49,854 nucleotides of DNA, taken from NCBI GenBank assembly GCA_902592345.1, contig CACJEE010000001.1:110038-159891 (forward strand), written 5' to 3'. Position 1 is the first letter of the stretch; every line of letters starts with the position of its first letter. The notes under the pieces are model-generated. The model searched no databases. It was not told the origin of the DNA and saw only the letters and a program-made list of their open reading frames with translations. This stretch comes from an uncultured Alphaproteobacteria bacterium (GTDB lineage: Bacteria > Pseudomonadota > Alphaproteobacteria > HIMB59 > GCA-002718135). The position numbers were made by a program, and so were the translations under genes. Below, one piece after another: positions 9,296 to 17,241 of the stretch.

Positions 9296-10606
9296 CTATT
9301 TCAAATATCCTAAATATTCTTTTTGGAAATCAATCATTGTATTAAGAAGTTGTTCTGCCTTTATTGCATTATCTACAACAGGATCTGCTAATAAGGCTTG
9401 ATAAGCAATATGTTTTGATTCTTTTAAAACAGCTTCACTAGTTAACTGAATTGTGCCCACCTGATTATTAAGTAATGAAGCAAAATCTGATGGGTAGTTT
9501 TCTAACCTCATACCTGTTACACCAGACTTATTTAGAATACCTGGCACTTCTACAACTATATCTTTTGGCAATGAATCAATAAAGTTATTATTAGGAACAT
9601 TCACAGCAGATTCTTCCAGGTCTGTATCATTTAATATTGCTTCTAAAATAGGAATTATTCTCTCATTCATTTTATTATCACTCATATTAAAATATTCACT
9701 ATAATGTGATTCATTGTCATAAAAAGTTAAACATCTTTTTTTGTAATTATCATAAAACTCCATAATTGCCTCATGATCAGCTACACTATAAGCCCATTGT
9801 ATGTATTCACCTAGATGGCTATCAGTAGTAATTGGAAGGTATCCATATATTTTGTACAATTCAAAAAACACACCTCTTTCACCCCCAGGTTTAGATGGAT
9901 AGTATTCACTTGTTAATTTAGAGTAATAATCTTTAAATTTTTTACGAATTATTGGATAACCATCTTTTTCAGTATCTTTATATTTTACGTTCAATAAAAT
10001 ACTTAAATGATTTAATCCCCCAGCTTTTATTTGAATATTAGAATAGTCAGTTTCCATTATTGTAGGTAATTGCCTCTCCATTGATGCTATTTCATGACAT
10101 AAACCTATAAATTTTAAGTCTTGATATTTTGAAGTAACAGCATGGCATATTCGCTGCATAGGATTTGAGTAATTAAACACAAAAGCATTTGGACATATTT
10201 TTACAATGTCATCACATATATTTAAAATTGCAGGAATAATTCTTAAAGAGTGGAATAGACCACCAGGCCCACCATTTTCTCCATAGATTTGCTTAACTCC
10301 ATATTGAAGTGGAATTTTCCAATCTTGATCCCATAAATCAAAACGATTACCTACTTCTATTGATATTATACAAAATTTAGCATCTTTAAGAGCTTCTGCT
10401 CTATTAGTTGTTGCTTCTATATTGTAATTTACTTTTAACTTTTCTTTATACTCTAAAGCAATTTTTTTTGTGTTTTCAAGAGCTTGAGCATTAATATCAT
10501 GAAGAGTAACAGTGGAACCTTCTAAAATTTTTGATTTAAAAATATCTCCAATAGTTCCTAATCCAAAATTAGCACTGCCAGCTCCTATCAAAACTATTTT
10601 ATTCAT
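9296..10606 (-). CDS. Glycoside hydrolase family 4 protein (alpha-glucosidase/alpha-galacturonidase-like)
   Basis: This 436-residue GH4 enzyme has a Rossmann motif VLIGAGSANFG at residues 5-15. NYSNP lies at 145-149 and GLCHE with Cys170-His171 at 168-172, the metal-binding pair of the family. GLNHLS follows further on. GH4 enzymes cleave phosphorylated or free glycosides by an NAD+ and Mn2+-dependent redox elimination mechanism in the cytoplasm. The short form resembles LplD/AglA-type members, but alpha or beta preference and substrate cannot be read from sequence. It is five bases from the CUT2 permease gene and so part of that operon. This suggests the imported compound is a glycoside. Confidence 0.85.
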   Translation of the reverse strand: MNKIVLIGAGSANFGLGTIGDIFKSKILEGSTVTLHDINAQALENTKKIALEYKEKLKVNYNIEATTNRAEALKDAKFCIISIEVGNRFDLWDQDWKIPLQYGVKQIYGENGGPGGLFHSLRIIPAILNICDDIVKICPNAFVFNYSNPMQRICHAVTSKYQDLKFIGLCHEIASMERQLPTIMETDYSNIQIKAGGLNHLSILLNVKYKDTEKDGYPIIRKKFKDYYSKLTSEYYPSKPGGERGVFFELYKIYGYLPITTDSHLGEYIQWAYSVADHEAIMEFYDNYKKRCLTFYDNESHYSEYFNMSDNKMNERIIPILEAILNDTDLEESAVNVPNNNFIDSLPKDIVVEVPGILNKSGVTGMRLENYPSDFASLLNNQVGTIQLTSEAVLKESKHIAYQALLADPVVDNAIKAEQLLNTMIDFQKEYLGYLK

Positions 10607-10611
10607 AAAAT

Positions 10612-11586
10612 TTATCTAACTCTTTCACCATGTAAGCGATGTCCCAATAAAGCTAAAAGTATAATTAAGCCATTAAAAAATTGTCTCCATGTTCCACTCC
10701 AACCTATAGCTATTATTCCAATTTCCATGTAAGCTATTATTCCCACCCCAAATATAGCTCCAACAATTGTACCTAATCCACCCCAATAAGGAGTTCCACC
10801 AACAAATACTGCAGCTAGTGCTAGTAAAAGATATCCAAAACCTTGAGTTGGAAAAAAAGTATAAGTAATTAATGTCGTAAAGATGCCTCCAATAGCTGCA
10901 CCTATACCAACAAACATGAAGGCTTTTATTTTTACAGCTTTTACATTAATTCCCATCTGTTCAGCACTTACAGCGTTGTCACCAACGTGATGGATATGAA
11001 TGCCAAACACATGCTTGCTAAATAAATAATAACAATAAATAACAAATATAGCTGCCCAAAAAATTTGCATTGGAAAACCATAAAAATTTCCTACAAGAGC
11101 AAAATAAGTCCAATGAGTGTCAATTTCCATAATAGTAATTGAACGACTTTCTGTTAATAATAATATAATTCCCCTTAATAGAAAAAGCATACCCAACGAG
11201 GCAACCAAAGATGAAAGTCTAAAAACAACTATTAAAGCTCCAACTATAGCTCCAATAATGGCACCAGTTAAAATACCTGCTAGAATAGCAATTGCAGGAT
11301 CTATTCCTGTTTTAACCATTATAGCAAAAATATATGCTGCAACTGCATAAGTTGAAGCAAAGGATAAGTCAATTTCTCCTGAAGCTACTAAAAAAACTAA
11401 TGGAATTACTAAAAAAATAAGAGTAGGGAGCATTACAAAAACAGATTGATGTAAGCTTGGTCTCATCCATGCTTCTGGCGCACCTATAAGAAATACCAAC
11501 ATCAATAGTATGAAATAACCCATACTTCCTAAGGCTCTTCCATTTTTATGAAAAATATTTCCTATTATTGATTTTTCTTTATTCAT
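10612..11586 (-). CDS. Sugar ABC transporter permease (RbsC/CUT2 type)
   Basis: This 324-residue integral membrane protein has about nine hydrophobic segments. FLVASGEIDLSFAS near residues 65-78 is the RbsC-family signature (G-E-I/F-D-L-S), and AVFVGGTPYWGGLGTIVGA near 264-282 is the conserved C-terminal loop. It would form a homodimeric pore with the ATPase encoded just upstream (gap of 8 bases) and receive substrate from the RbsB-like binding protein. The ligand is unknown; the GH4 gene downstream suggests a glycoside or pyranose. Confidence 0.9.
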   Translation of the reverse strand: MNKEKSIIGNIFHKNGRALGSMGYFILLMLVFLIGAPEAWMRPSLHQSVFVMLPTLIFLVIPLVFLVASGEIDLSFASTYAVAAYIFAIMVKTGIDPAIAILAGILTGAIIGAIVGALIVVFRLSSLVASLGMLFLLRGIILLLTESRSITIMEIDTHWTYFALVGNFYGFPMQIFWAAIFVIYCYYLFSKHVFGIHIHHVGDNAVSAEQMGINVKAVKIKAFMFVGIGAAIGGIFTTLITYTFFPTQGFGYLLLALAAVFVGGTPYWGGLGTIVGAIFGVGIIAYMEIGIIAIGWSGTWRQFFNGLIILLALLGHRLHGERVR

Positions 11587-11594
11587 TTTCTGTT

Positions 11595-12341
11595 CTAATG
11601 TTTTTTAATTGTATCACGCATTAATTTCATTAATTCTTCAGGAGATTTTATCTCTTCTTTGTTAAGTTGATGAACAACTTCTCCTCGATCTAGTATAACA
11701 AATCGATCTGATATATCATATACATGATAAATATTATGACCTATGAATAAAACAGACCGATTAGATTTCTTAACATTGTTTACAAATTCAAAAACTTTTT
11801 GTGTTTCATTGAGTGATAAAGCATTTGTTGGTTCATCAAGTATAATTAATTCTGCATTATTATATATAGCTCTTGCTATAGCTACTCCTTGTCTCTCACC
11901 ACCAGATAAATTTCCTACTGGTGATTCAGCATCAATTAATTTTGATGTAAAACCTATTTCTCTAATTAATCTATTTGCTTCTTTAACTTGCTCTTTTTCT
12001 CTAACAAATCCAAAAGGATATCTTAATTCTTTTCCCATAAAGATATTCCAAACTATTGATTGTTGTGGGCATAAAGCCCTATCTTGAAAAACTGTTTCGA
12101 TTCCTGACTCTCGTGCCTTTAAAGCTGTCCAATTAAAAACTTTTTTACCTCTTATTACTATTTCTCCTTCATCAGGGCCATATACTCCAACTAGTGTTTT
12201 TATTAATGTAGATTTTCCAGCACCATTATCTCCAATTAAACCTACCACCTCACCTTGATCAACATGCAACGATGCTTTATTTAATGCTGTAATTCCACCA
12301 AATCTTTTTGTTACATTTTTTAATTCAATTATTTTTTCCAT
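11595..12341 (-). CDS. Sugar ABC transporter ATP-binding protein (single-domain CUT2/FrcA-like)
   Basis: This 248-residue ATPase has Walker A GDNGAGKST at 37-45, signature NLSGGERQGVAIARAI, Walker B LIILDEPTNAL and switch His in FIGHNIYHV. Classical RbsA has two fused ATPase domains of about 500 residues. This one has a single domain, as in FrcA-like transporters, and would work as a homodimer. It is separated from the binding-protein gene upstream by 58 bases containing a strong hairpin, and from the permease downstream by 8 bases. Confidence 0.9.
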   Translation of the reverse strand: MEKIIELKNVTKRFGGITALNKASLHVDQGEVVGLIGDNGAGKSTLIKTLVGVYGPDEGEIVIRGKKVFNWTALKARESGIETVFQDRALCPQQSIVWNIFMGKELRYPFGFVREKEQVKEANRLIREIGFTSKLIDAESPVGNLSGGERQGVAIARAIYNNAELIILDEPTNALSLNETQKVFEFVNNVKKSNRSVLFIGHNIYHVYDISDRFVILDRGEVVHQLNKEEIKSPEELMKLMRDTIKKH

Positions 12342-12399: not shown

Positions 12400-13395
12400 C
12401 TATCTTAAACCTGCGTCCGCAAGCGCTTTAACTGCTTGATAATTGTTTGTATCAACAAAACCAGCACCAGTATCTTGATTTATAGCTCCGGTACCTAGTA
12501 CAGCTGTTTGGCATAGAGAAAGCACAGGTAGATAACCCTGCAAGAAAGGCTGTTGATCTGAAGTAAGATGAACATAACCTTTTTCAAAAGCTGACATGAT
12601 TTGTGGACTAGTATCAAAACCAATCTGAAGTATTTCATTTGGCCCATATCCAGAAGCTTTTGCAATTCCTTCAGCAACATTCATTATATCACTTCCAGAA
12701 TGAACAATTACTTTAGTCTCTGGATTAGCTGCAAGTGCAGCAGAAAAGATTGGAATAGACATGTTAGGATCAGATGCATATTTTGGATCTCCATCAACAA
12801 CAGTTACTGTCATACCGTGCTCTTCAAAGATAATTCTTGCACCATCCTCTCTTTGCGCTCTTGCATAGTCTCCAATTGGAACCATAACTATTGCATGATC
12901 GCCAGCTTTGAAACCATATTGTCTTATAGCTTCTCTTGCTAGTGCCTTACCTTGTGTAGCTAAATTTGCACCAACATAACCACCTCCATAAGTTGCACGA
13001 ACTTCTGATGGATCAACATTTTGATAGGTCATCAAGATACCTTTTTCTGCTGCTTGTTTTGCAAGCGGCATTAAAGCTTCATTTCCTGGATGTCCCATCA
13101 TCGCAATAGCATCAACTCCTAAACCAACAGACTCCCTTAACTGACGAACCATTTTTTCAAAATCCCATTCTGAATAAATAATCTCTGCATCAGCTCCAGT
13201 ATCTCTTATTGCATTCATTGCTCCAGCTGCAACTATACCTGCAAATCCTCCAGCTTCAGGACCACCTGCATAAAAGTGCATCTTTACATCTGAACACCAA
13301 TTATCTCCTAAATCCTGCCCTGATGGAGCAGCTATTGATTGAAGAGATAAAGGAACAAAAAAAACAGAAACAATTAATAATTTTAAAATTTTCAT
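12400..13395 (-). CDS. Sugar ABC transporter substrate-binding protein (RbsB-like)
   Basis: This 331-residue periplasmic binding protein opens with a signal peptide MKILKLLIVSVFFVPLSLQS ending near an A-A-P. The mature part has the type I fold pattern: MHFYAGGPEAGGF, VDAIAMMGHPGNEALMP, GDHAIVMVPIGDYARAQRE and QIGFDTSPQI. The start is the ATG at 13395 because GGGAGG at 13400-13405 precedes it; an upstream TTG at 13407 has no site. It is the first gene of the CUT2 - GH4 - AglK operon and lies 46 bases downstream of a perfect LacI operator. The ligand is unknown. Confidence 0.9.
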   Translation of the reverse strand: MKILKLLIVSVFFVPLSLQSIAAPSGQDLGDNWCSDVKMHFYAGGPEAGGFAGIVAAGAMNAIRDTGADAEIIYSEWDFEKMVRQLRESVGLGVDAIAMMGHPGNEALMPLAKQAAEKGILMTYQNVDPSEVRATYGGGYVGANLATQGKALAREAIRQYGFKAGDHAIVMVPIGDYARAQREDGARIIFEEHGMTVTVVDGDPKYASDPNMSIPIFSAALAANPETKVIVHSGSDIMNVAEGIAKASGYGPNEILQIGFDTSPQIMSAFEKGYVHLTSDQQPFLQGYLPVLSLCQTAVLGTGAINQDTGAGFVDTNNYQAVKALADAGLR

Positions 13396-13440
13396 TTTTC
13401 CTCCCAAATTTTTAATAAATTTATTAATAATAAACTAAAT

Positions 13441-13509: not shown

Positions 13510-14298
13510 TTAATTTTTTAAGTTTTTTACAAAACTCTCATACTCATTTTCAGAAATATCTATATCATGAGTTGTCGATGGATAATTTTTAGATATCACA
13601 TCTTCTTTAAAACTTTTAAATGCTTTTTCAGCTTTCTTTTTAATTAATTCATAATCCTTAGCTATATCTGAGTATACTTTAGCATGTCTTGGAATGTGTC
13701 CTTTATTATAGCCTAAAATATCTTCCGCAAATAAATATTGAGCATCGCATCCAGTACCACTACCCATACCAATAATAAAAACATCAATGTTTTTACTAAT
13801 ATAATCAGCAACTTTGAATGGAACAATTTCAAGCTCAATAGCAAAGGCCCCAGCATCTTGGAGGGAAAGACATTGATTATAAATTTTATGTGCTTCCTTT
13901 GCATTCTTTCCATAAGCTTTGAATCCTCCATAAAAAGTTGATTTATACGGAATAAATCCTGAGTGTCCAACTACAGGAATTCCTTCATCCGATATTGCTT
14001 TAATAAGCTTGTGACTCTGAGGGCAGTATATTGCATCTGCCCCAATATTAATTAGTTCAAAAGATCTTTTTAAAATTTCATATTCATTTAAATAGCTTCC
14101 ATATTTTAAACCAACTGTTAAAAAAGTATTTTTAGCAGAATCTCTAATACCATCTATATCATTCAATTCAGAAGATACTATCATTTCTATACCAGCTGCT
14201 TCACACGCTGCAGCTTCTAGAGGATTATGAGTATAAACTTCTGAAAGCTTTTTACTTCCTTTACATTTAATTATTTCCTTTACTGTTAATTTTTTCAT
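13510..14298 (-). CDS. Divergent PanB-fold protein (ketopantoate hydroxymethyltransferase-like), metal ligands missing
   Basis: This 262-residue protein has the overall PanB sequence pattern: GIPVVGHSGFIP at 106-117, GGFKAYGK, LEIVP at 156-160 retaining the catalytic-type Glu157, VFIIGMGSGTGCDAQYLFAEDILG and GHIPRHAKVY. From my hand alignment to E. coli PanB, the metal ligands are replaced: Asp45 by Ser43, Asp84 by Gly63 and Glu114 by Pro93; substrate Lys112 becomes Tyr91. It is therefore unlikely to be a normal ketopantoate hydroxymethyltransferase. It lies eight bases after an aldehyde dehydrogenase gene in a carbohydrate island with no pantothenate genes, pointing to a catabolic aldolase-like or lyase role. 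The true function is unknown. Confidence 0.7.
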   Translation of the reverse strand: MKKLTVKEIIKCKGSKKLSEVYTHNPLEAAACEAAGIEMIVSSELNDIDGIRDSAKNTFLTVGLKYGSYLNEYEILKRSFELINIGADAIYCPQSHKLIKAISDEGIPVVGHSGFIPYKSTFYGGFKAYGKNAKEAHKIYNQCLSLQDAGAFAIELEIVPFKVADYISKNIDVFIIGMGSGTGCDAQYLFAEDILGYNKGHIPRHAKVYSDIAKDYELIKKKAEKAFKSFKEDVISKNYPSTTHDIDISENEYESFVKNLKN

Positions 14299-14305
14299 AA
14301 TGATA

Positions 14306-15742
14306 TTAATAAAGTCTTTTACTTACTCTTTTAGTTTGGCCATGACTATAAATACCATCCATACCACCATCTCTTCCATATCCAGATTTTTTATAACCAC
14401 CACCAGGTAAATTTATTCCATCAACAAACCAATCATTGTGCCAAATTATTCCAGCTTTAATTCTTTCTGCAGTCCATTTAGCTTTTTGATCATCAGCAGT
14501 GAAAACTCCTGACGCTAAACCATAGCTTGTTGAATTTGCAATTTCTATAGCTTCATTTTCAGTTTCAAAATCAAACACAGAAGCAACTGGACCAAATATT
14601 TCTTCTTGAGCAATAGTAGCTTTTGTTGAAACATTATCAAAAATTGTTGGCAGATAAAAATTCCCATCTTTGTTTTGATCTTCTTTACCGCCAAGTTCCA
14701 ATGTAGCACCAGACTGTATACCTGAATTTACATAATTTGAAACTCTTTGCATTTGATCCTTAGATATTAGTGGAGTTACTTCAGTTTCAGAATCTGCTCC
14801 TGAGCCAACTTTAAGTTTTTTTGATTTAGAAATTAATTTAGTCATATATTCGTCTTTTATTTTTGGATGAACAATTACTCTAGACATAGCTACACATATT
14901 TGACCTGCATTAGGTTTAAAAATTCCTTTAACGGTACTCTCGACAGCTTTATCTATATCCGCATCAGGAAAAATTATTGCTGCAGATTTTCCACCTAACT
15001 CAAAATGACATGGCACAATTCTATCTGCAGTCTCTTTTAATATTTCTGATGCAACTTCTGGAGATCCAGTAAAAACAATATAATCACTCCCTTTATTTTT
15101 AACAAGTTTTCTTCCTGTAATATCCCCAAAACCATGAACTATATTTATTATGCCGTTTGGAACCCCAACTTCTTCAAATATTTTTCCATAAAAGTTTGAA
15201 GATAAAGGGCATAGCTCAGGAGGTTTTATTACAATTGTATTTCCAACAATCAAATTTTGCGCCACCATTCCTGAAAAAATAGAAACCGGATAGTTCCATG
15301 GAACTATTTGAAGACTAACTCCAAAAGGCTCTAAAACTACGTAATTAAACGTATCTTTTCCAGATGGAATAAGTTTATTTTGAATTTTGTCAGTCATACC
15401 AGCGTAAAAGTCAAAAGTATCAGCTGCTCCATTAAATTCATCAATACACTGAGCGATTGTTTTTCCGTTTTCTTGGCTTAAAAGCTTTCCTCCTTCATTT
15501 TTATATTCACGAAGCTTTGTCGCAATAGCCCTCATCATATTAGATTTTTTTTTTGGATCCATATCCAAAAGTATTCTTTTATCAAAAGCTTTTTTAGCCG
15601 ACTCAAAAGCTAAATTAATTTCATCATCTAAAGCTTGATCAATATTTCCAACCACTTTTTGATTTGCGGGATTAACTATTGGAATTTTTTCTTTAGATAT
15701 GGAGTCTATAAATTTCCCATTAATAAAGTTTCTTGTTTCCAT
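14306..15742 (-). CDS. NAD(P)-dependent aldehyde dehydrogenase
   Basis: This is a 478-residue aldehyde dehydrogenase of full family length. VPWNYP places Asn at 150, FTGSPEV marks the cofactor-binding glycines, FELGGKS gives general-base Glu248, and NAGQICVAMSR gives nucleophile Cys283. It resembles betaine-, lactaldehyde- or succinate semialdehyde-type enzymes; the substrate cannot be chosen from sequence. It lies directly upstream of the PanB-like gene and 64 bases downstream of a membrane desaturase/oxygenase gene. It could therefore oxidise an aldehyde made in the same pathway. Confidence 0.9.
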   Translation of the reverse strand: METRNFINGKFIDSISKEKIPIVNPANQKVVGNIDQALDDEINLAFESAKKAFDKRILLDMDPKKKSNMMRAIATKLREYKNEGGKLLSQENGKTIAQCIDEFNGAADTFDFYAGMTDKIQNKLIPSGKDTFNYVVLEPFGVSLQIVPWNYPVSIFSGMVAQNLIVGNTIVIKPPELCPLSSNFYGKIFEEVGVPNGIINIVHGFGDITGRKLVKNKGSDYIVFTGSPEVASEILKETADRIVPCHFELGGKSAAIIFPDADIDKAVESTVKGIFKPNAGQICVAMSRVIVHPKIKDEYMTKLISKSKKLKVGSGADSETEVTPLISKDQMQRVSNYVNSGIQSGATLELGGKEDQNKDGNFYLPTIFDNVSTKATIAQEEIFGPVASVFDFETENEAIEIANSTSYGLASGVFTADDQKAKWTAERIKAGIIWHNDWFVDGINLPGGGYKKSGYGRDGGMDGIYSHGQTKRVSKRLY

Positions 15743-15806: not shown

Positions 15807-16820
15807 TTAAAAATTTGGAATTTTAACAGGTATGTAATAATTAGGATTTTTAGATTTTTTGATTACAGCTGGAATAATTTCTTTATATGCTTCAAATAAT
15901 GATTGAGGTTTTGGAAGTTGATATTTTATTTCTTCATGAAGTTTAGGAAGGTTGTGGGAAGGCACCATTGGAAACATATGATGCTCGATGTGATATTCCA
16001 TTTTCCAATATATAAAACTAAAAATTGGATTTAGCCTGACAGATCTAGTAGACTCCCTGTGATCCTTAGTACTTTCTTTCAGTCCCATATGTTGAGTTAG
16101 ACCCCAAACAACATTCATAAATATAAAAAATTTTGGAAGAAGAAATAACAGTATTGGGAGAATTGAGTTAAAAATAAAGCTAAATAAAATAATTATAAGC
16201 CATAAGGTGACAAATATTCTTGAACTACGAATACAATCAATTTTTTTTTCTTCAGGTATGCATTCTTTCATTACTCTAGTGTTATATCCTAAAGCATGTT
16301 GAATAATTTCTAGATGTAAAGATTTGTGGAGTATAAGAAAATAATAGCCTGGAATAAATCTTATAAGAAAACTAAAAAGAGTTGGTTTTGAAAATATACT
16401 TTCATCAACTTCAAAGTCATGAGGGTCAACTGATGCCGTGTAACTATGATGTAATGAATGACTGCTTCTCCATCTAACGGGTTCGAAATTATTCATAAAG
16501 CTGGCTATAATATAAAAGAAATTATTAAGTTTCCTTGTTTTAAAAGCTGTTCGATGACCACATTCATGCCAAATTGCATCAGCACCACCCCAAAACATAC
16601 AGTAAGATAAGTATACAGGGATAAACCAAATAGTGCCCCATGAATAAACACTTATTGTTCCAAGAGTTAAAAGAGTAATAGTGAATATAATTATATGTTT
16701 CCATCCCTCATAATCACTTCTTCTAGATAATTCTTTTAGTTTTTTTCTATCAATATTTGCCCTAAACCATTCACTAGAAATGTTATTTATTCCAATTTGG
16801 ATTTTTTTTGAATCAGTCAT
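15807..16820 (-). CDS. Membrane fatty-acid-desaturase-family oxygenase (MocD-like)
   Basis: This 337-residue membrane di-iron protein has the three histidine boxes of the family: HECGHR, HSLHHSYT and EYHIEHHMFP. Four or so membrane segments lie between them. It is divergent from a small Rieske ferredoxin gene. The pairing of a desaturase-like oxygenase with a Rieske ferredoxin is the arrangement of MocD and MocE in rhizobial rhizopine catabolism, where an O-demethylation step is proposed. A true lipid desaturase with its own ferredoxin is the alternative, but the carbohydrate context favours a catabolic oxygenase. Certainty is high for family and moderate for role. Confidence 0.8.
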   Translation of the reverse strand: MTDSKKIQIGINNISSEWFRANIDRKKLKELSRRSDYEGWKHIIIFTITLLTLGTISVYSWGTIWFIPVYLSYCMFWGGADAIWHECGHRTAFKTRKLNNFFYIIASFMNNFEPVRWRSSHSLHHSYTASVDPHDFEVDESIFSKPTLFSFLIRFIPGYYFLILHKSLHLEIIQHALGYNTRVMKECIPEEKKIDCIRSSRIFVTLWLIIILFSFIFNSILPILLFLLPKFFIFMNVVWGLTQHMGLKESTKDHRESTRSVRLNPIFSFIYWKMEYHIEHHMFPMVPSHNLPKLHEEIKYQLPKPQSLFEAYKEIIPAVIKKSKNPNYYIPVKIPNF

Positions 16821-16929: not shown

Positions 16930-17241
16930 ATGGAAAATTGGATTTATGTTTGTGATAAAAGCGATATTGATTTTGAAGATCTAAAAAGATTCGACTACGA
17001 AAATAAGACCTTTTGCATCTATAATATTAATGATGGTTTTTTTGCAACTGATGGTATTTGCACACATGAAGATGTTCATTTAGAAGATGGTTTAGTCACT
17101 GGTGATGAAATAGAGTGCCCAATGCATCAAGGGATTTTCAATATTAAGACAGGAGCTGTAATTCAAGATCCTCCATGTGAAGATTTAAGAACATATGCAG
17201 TTAAGTTAGAGGAAGAAAAAATATATATAAATATTGTTTAA
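16930..17241 (+). CDS. Rieske [2Fe-2S] ferredoxin (MocE-like)
   Basis: This 103-residue Rieske ferredoxin has the cluster motif CTHEDVHLEDG and, 16 residues on, CPMHQG, giving the two Cys and two His ligands. There is no signal peptide and no attached oxygenase domain, so it is a soluble electron carrier. It is transcribed away from the MocD-like gene across a 109-base divergent promoter region and ends two bases from the convergent AglG-like gene. It most likely delivers electrons to the membrane oxygenase. No ferredoxin reductase (MocF equivalent) is present in the window. Confidence 0.85.
   Translation: MENWIYVCDKSDIDFEDLKRFDYENKTFCIYNINDGFFATDGICTHEDVHLEDGLVTGDEIECPMHQGIFNIKTGAVIQDPPCEDLRTYAVKLEEEKIYINIV

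Follow-up and report, generated by a model that had tools for sequence, protein, structure and literature searches.

PanB (3-methyl-2-oxobutanoate hydroxymethyltransferase) natively moves a hydroxymethyl group between methylene-tetrahydrofolate (methylene-THF) and a 2-oxo acid bound to Mg2+. Formaldehyde is the one-carbon (C1) product when oxygenases demethylate their substrates, and on the folate route FolD and PurU lead from methylene-THF to formate. In rhizopine catabolism, demethylation is the step carried out by MocDEF. The condensation of formaldehyde with tetrahydrofolate (THF) is drawn as a spontaneous reaction (PMC8879981, PMC3160333); by calculation, however, the uncatalyzed rate falls far short of what growth requires, and it was suggested that an enzyme activating formaldehyde with THF might exist (PMC7073904). 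No enzyme for this step was found in the literature searched.

Three described systems come close to the locus reported here. Fae, the formaldehyde-activating enzyme of tetrahydromethanopterin metabolism, resembles our proposal in the type of reaction, the transfer of formaldehyde to a reduced pterin, but it belongs to an unrelated family, and the carrier proposed for the PanB-like protein is THF. In MABO and in the dimethylglycine and sarcosine dehydrogenases with a GcvT domain, demethylation is tied to THF, folD and purU, and the purU-mabO-folD operon of the demethylating oxidase is a precedent for the gene layout (PMC3891541). There, the oxidase itself passes the C1 unit to THF, whereas no folate domain was seen on the oxygenase of our locus and the PanB-like protein is separate. 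The rhizopine mocDEF system shares with the clusters described below a MocD-type oxygenase, the MocE ferredoxin, an FAD reductase, an inositol dehydrogenase and a related transporter. According to those passages of PMC10107442 that cite Bahar 1998, MocDEF is needed for the catabolism of rhizopines including 3-O-methyl-scyllo-inosamine; the mechanism proposed there is a ferredoxin oxygenase complex whose product enters inositol degradation. The moc set given there (mocDEF, mocR, mocBA, mocC; PMC10107442) differs from our clusters in that it names no PanB-like gene.

Results

An intact PanB homologue without the PanB metal site

The window analyzed here is a stretch of 49,854 nucleotides from an uncultured alphaproteobacterium. 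On its minus strand, positions 13510-14298 hold an intact open reading frame for a PanB-like protein of 262 amino acids, as the first-pass annotation had read it. PF02548 (Pantoate_transf) was the sole family matched (E 2.5e-42), and the protein stays far under the cut-off of the PanB equivalog TIGR00222 (121.9 bits versus 207.55) and scores 134.8 bits against the NF001452 cut-off of 272. An AlphaFold model (pLDDT 92.4) aligns with E. coli PanB (1m3u) at a Z-score of 26.9 and 24% identity. Z-scores were ~27 to PanB structures in comparison to ~16 for the PEP mutase/isocitrate lyase superfamily, which has the barrel fold in common but is clearly further away than PanB; judged through the PanB alignment, the window protein has no acidic metal ligands at the equivalent positions. 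The predicted structure thereby bears out the PanB fold that had been proposed for this protein.

Active-site residues were compared using E. coli PanB (1m3u) as the reference. The Mg2+ site Asp45/Asp84/Glu114 is absent: Asp84 corresponds to Gly63 and Glu114 to Pro93, and Lys112 is replaced by Tyr91, all three as previously assigned by hand alignment. Asp45 pairs with Ser43 in one alignment and with Glu44 in another, since the loop following Asp45 is deleted, leaving an active-site loop shorter than that of PanB; the earlier claim that the conserved acid is lost holds, while its exact partner, given as Ser43, is ambiguous. Retained are His136 (His112), Glu181 (Glu157), Asp209 (Asp185) and the C-terminal G-x-x-P block, here G-H-I-P-R-H-A-K with His in place of the Phe of the PanB P-K-F; the Glu and this block were already described as kept. 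The protein thus resembles PanB in fold, His136/Glu181/Asp209 and C-terminal block, but differs by the missing Asp45/Asp84/Glu114/Lys112, the shortened loop, a new Glu155/His205 pair and a gene location outside any pantothenate context.

The same pattern extends over 118 metal-less sequences. Of these, 90% have Gly at position 84, none (0/118) keeps Lys112, which is replaced by Tyr in 91%, and A, G, S or P is the usual residue at position 114. In the Asp45 column, P, H and F prevail and E or D is found in a minority of sequences, and therefore no conserved acid exists at position 45 in the clade. A search for compensating acids at the metal positions found none conserved across the 118 sequences, so the loss of the site stands. 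His136, Glu181 and Asp209 of PanB are still nearly invariant in the clade, His112 and Glu157 being invariant in all sequences compared, and two residues are newly fixed: Glu155 and His205 occur in 118/118 members and each in less than 15% of canonical PanB.

A metal-dependent hydrolase or lyase could be built from these positions, with His112, Glu155, Glu157 and His205 forming a new site. The invariance of all four residues, and the placement of Glu155 and Glu157 on one strand two residues apart, speak for such an arrangement; however, the variant PanBs of a second group (group 2, see below) share the new Glu and not the His, and we regard a rebuilt metal site as quite unlikely.

The window's genome carries a second PanB on another contig, with the canonical Asp45, Asp84, Lys112 and Glu114. 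The PanB-like protein is thus not the sole PanB of this genome, and that candidate explanation was discarded. No panC was found within 3.7 kb around the canonical copy, which says little.

The metal-less proteins form one conserved clade

A maximum-likelihood tree built from 81 sequences separates the metal-less proteins from the rest by a branch with 100/100 support, which was recovered in all bootstrap trees. The loss of the residues therefore defines a clade and is not an accident of one gene. A profile of the clade scored its members at ~250 bits and up, with one partial match at 164, in comparison to at most ~156 bits for other PanB. Members were found in Alphaproteobacteria, Actinomycetota and Chloroflexota, in the latter two in genome bins, and on rhizobial and Rhodobacterales plasmids; a single member returned 272 records at E 1e-20. 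Within the genus and order of the window, relatives at ~40% identity reach up to five matches per genome. In the open literature searched on PanB homologues together with formaldehyde or demethylases, nothing was found on this clade, the matches being work on E. coli PanB and the two mentions of panB in other gene clusters cited below.

Pairwise dN/dS values within the clade range from ~0.03 to 0.16, i.e., it is under purifying selection. Since the proteins form a single 100/100 clade with low dN/dS and new invariant residues (Glu155/His205), the active site appears rebuilt and not decayed, in agreement with the first-pass reading, and a decaying duplicate was ruled out. The related idea of a degenerate PanB still making ketopantoate could draw on the database, where relatives are annotated as PanB, but the scores under the equivalog cut-off, the absent metal residues, the canonical PanB in the same genome and the dN/dS range make either form of it scarcely credible. 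The annotated metal-less records from plasmids carry the name 3-methyl-2-oxobutanoate hydroxymethyltransferase; should the function proposed below be true, this naming amounts to misannotation on a large scale.

Some genomes hold several copies close together. Two metal-less paralogues lie at L061:9231-10921 beside two PhyH genes of opposite orientation, and three are found close together in one genome at L153. Two further members come from a Verrucomicrobia bin (L158) and a genome labelled Bifidobacterium breve (L097). Both labels look wrong or contaminated, and L158 groups in the tree with marine alphaproteobacterial sequences.

Oxygenases accompany the clade

In the window, the PanB-like gene lies within a run of minus-strand genes spaced 5 to 102 bp apart, in the order MocD-like oxygenase, aldehyde dehydrogenase, PanB-like gene, solute-binding protein, ATPase, permease and GH4 glycosidase. 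The MocD-like protein (15807-16820, 337 aa; PF00487, E 2.6e-36) is a membrane di-iron oxygenase of the fatty-acid-desaturase fold whose three histidine boxes (HECGH, HSLHH and HIEHH) are all intact. The aldehyde dehydrogenase (14306-15742, 478 aa; PF00171, E 1e-146) contains the active-site motifs GQIC and FELGGK and is separated from the PanB-like gene by 7 bp. Downstream follow a periplasmic sugar/rhizopine-type solute-binding protein (12400-13407; PF13407) with a weak match to the rhizopine-binding NF052284 (E 1.2e-19, under the cut-off), a sugar-type ABC transporter ATPase (11595-12341; PF00005) and a ribose-type permease (10612-11586; PF02653). A GH4-family NAD-dependent glycosidase (9296-10606; PF02056/PF11975) comes last after a 5 bp gap; it may indicate that a methylated substrate arrives as a glycoside. 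GH4 genes were also seen beside the relatives L062 and L149. Upstream of the operon and divergent from it, the plus strand encodes a MocE-family Rieske [2Fe-2S] ferredoxin (16930-17241, 103 aa; PF00355; TIGR02377, E 1.3e-34) with intact CxH/CxxH ligands, its 118.2 bits falling under the TIGR02377 cut-off of 136.15. No reductase gene was seen in the window cluster, and folD and purU are absent from it.

Across the clade, dereplication at 95% left 64 metal-less loci, and in 51 of these a MocD or PhyH gene was found within 8 kb; the same held for none of the 20 canonical PanB loci, which were taken from one class. The count was 22/32 at 80% and 10/13 at 60% dereplication. Fisher tests against canonical PanB gave p = 5e-11 (95%) and p = 3e-6 (60%), bearing in mind that related loci are not fully independent. 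MocD-type oxygenases are the commonest partner, and the recurring classes comprise MocD with ferredoxin and reductase, PhyH, and FA_hydroxylase of the sterol-desaturase type. Frequent neighbours also include inositol genes and xylose-isomerase-like TIM barrels, and annotated clusters of relatives contain inositol dehydrogenase together with sugar- or rhizopine-type ABC transporters. For 12 of the 55 clade tips, no oxygenase part was detected among the queried families; at two of these (L146, L153), an FA_hydroxylase is present. The deeper branches of the clade, e.g., L071, L075, L077 and L079, are without partners and may differ in role.

In a sample of the class, close MocD homologues occurred in 6 out of 14 genomes without a PanB-like protein, which is therefore not obligatory. 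Co-occurrence of the two was nonetheless strong in this sample (8 shared; Fisher p = 5e-8, uncorrected for kinship).

The constant company of oxygenase parts, together with the loss of the catalytic metal site, would also suit a non-catalytic partner, acting as a scaffold of the oxygenase complex or as its formaldehyde or folate carrier. Near-invariance of His136, Glu181 and Asp209 and the fixation of new pocket residues argue against this role, which we consider improbable.

The aldehyde dehydrogenase had been put forward as a clue to the function of the PanB-like protein. It does adjoin the gene in the window; among relatives, however, a strong match at this position is confined to the window's own lineage, and a general partnership was rejected. 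Conserved partners of the clade are instead a MocD oxygenase with Rieske ferredoxin and reductase, or PhyH, plus genes of folate C1 metabolism.

Folate one-carbon genes lie next to some clade members

In 8 loci, including those of Phyllobacterium, Rhizobium, Sinorhizobium and Neotabrizicola, the gene immediately after the PanB-like one is purU or folD. On the Neotabrizicola plasmid, one strand reads ferredoxin, TIM barrel, reductase, PanB-like gene, folD, purU and iolG, with only 8 bp between the PanB-like gene and folD; the gene identities were confirmed by NCBIfam. Overall, purU was present in 13 of 111 loci in comparison to ~0.7 expected if 2 copies per 5 Mb are assumed, and purU/folD adjacency required at least 3 changes of trait on the tree. 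Linkage to oxygenases and to THF C1 genes is thus a property of the clade, of which the window displays the oxygenase part only. Elsewhere in the window's genome, folD and fhs are present, which belong to a THF-linked oxidation route similar to that described for SAR11 (PMC3160333); purU was not found in this genome, which is 76% complete. With respect to a possible alternative sink via glutathione, proteins with a GFA domain, a broad family, occur in 36 of 41 relatives.

These neighbourhoods bear on a further explanation, a lyase or aldolase that attacks the carbon skeleton of what the oxygenase produces, e.g., by retro-aldol cleavage of a hydroxylated cyclitol or sugar. The resulting aldehyde would be passed to the neighbouring aldehyde dehydrogenase, with formaldehyde and folate as bystanders. 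PanB and the PEP mutase/isocitrate lyase fold perform C-C chemistry, the dehydrogenase gene is only 7 bp away in the window, and inositol genes and xylose-isomerase-like TIM barrels are frequent nearby. Nonetheless, the Mg site for the 2-oxo acid is missing throughout the clade, the partners vary in oxygenase class and transporter, for which a common C1 product is the better fit, and the adjacency of purU and folD is left unexplained. A skeleton-cleaving activity is therefore unlikely in our view.

Discussion

The neighbouring oxygenases probably strip methyl groups. Considering the lost metal site, the kept residues, this likely demethylase activity and the folD/purU linkage together, the best reading is therefore that the PanB-like protein loads formaldehyde, or a hydroxymethyl group, released by the oxygenase onto THF. 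We give this explanation as a whole an even chance of being right. A MocD/MocE-type oxygenase, or a PhyH-type one in relatives, would hydroxylate the methyl group of an imported methylated compound resembling a cyclitol or sugar, yielding formaldehyde or a hydroxymethyl hemiacetal. This C1 unit would then be condensed with THF to 5,10-methylene-THF by the PanB-like enzyme, and FolD, followed by PurU or Fhs, could carry it on to formate; the PanB-like protein would in effect be a THF-dependent formaldehyde-activating enzyme. In terms of PanB chemistry, the clade would have kept the hydroxymethyl/folate side and given up the Mg2+ site, to which the 2-oxo acid binds. We infer the demethylase role of the oxygenase, formaldehyde and THF as the substrates, and the identity of the catalytic residues.

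Linkage to oxygenases and to folD/purU, the retained His112/Glu157/Asp185 and the gained Glu155/His205 speak in favor of loading onto THF. Against it, folD and purU are missing from the window cluster, some clade members have no oxygenase part and some MocD genomes no PanB-like protein, the adjacent aldehyde dehydrogenase could serve as a formaldehyde sink, and deletion of panB and ltaE in E. coli left formaldehyde-dependent growth unchanged, a result that concerns canonical PanB (PMC7073904). The broader proposal, that a widespread PanB-derived family acts as THF-dependent formaldehyde-activating enzyme directly behind oxygenative demethylases, is somewhat more tentative and in our estimate falls a little short of an even chance.

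The family is thus a concrete candidate for the missing enzyme between formaldehyde and THF. Genomes of streamlined marine bacteria carry several copies of it each, and further members occur on hundreds of plasmids, most of them rhizobial. If true, this function would correct a large set of database annotations, account for the entry of C1 units from oxygenative demethylation into the folate metabolism of these bacteria, and provide a new part for synthetic methylotrophy.

Other PanB variants also lie near C1 genes. A Filomicrobium methanesulfonate cluster lists a PanB as 'C1-moiety transfer' (PMC4433239), and panB is mentioned in Pseudomonas nicotine catabolism (PMC3891541). At L203:6235-14021 and at L204, a Rieske oxygenase, a TauE sulfite exporter, a PanB with intact metal residues, Fhs and two FolD are encoded in a run that has the look of a C1 operon for sulfonates or methanesulfonate. 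The group-2 variants keep Asp45 and Lys112, carry Cys, Ser or Ala at position 84 and Gln at position 114, and share with the metal-less clade the new Glu at E. coli position 179. Together with the L203/L204 and Filomicrobium cases, they suggest a wider recruitment of PanB relatives for handling C1 units. Group-2 members L190, L191, L198, L201 and L202 are found near PhyH oxygenases, some with TRAP transporters or GcvT-fused dehydrogenases, and L190 scores over the PanB equivalog cut-off (288.5 versus 207.55).
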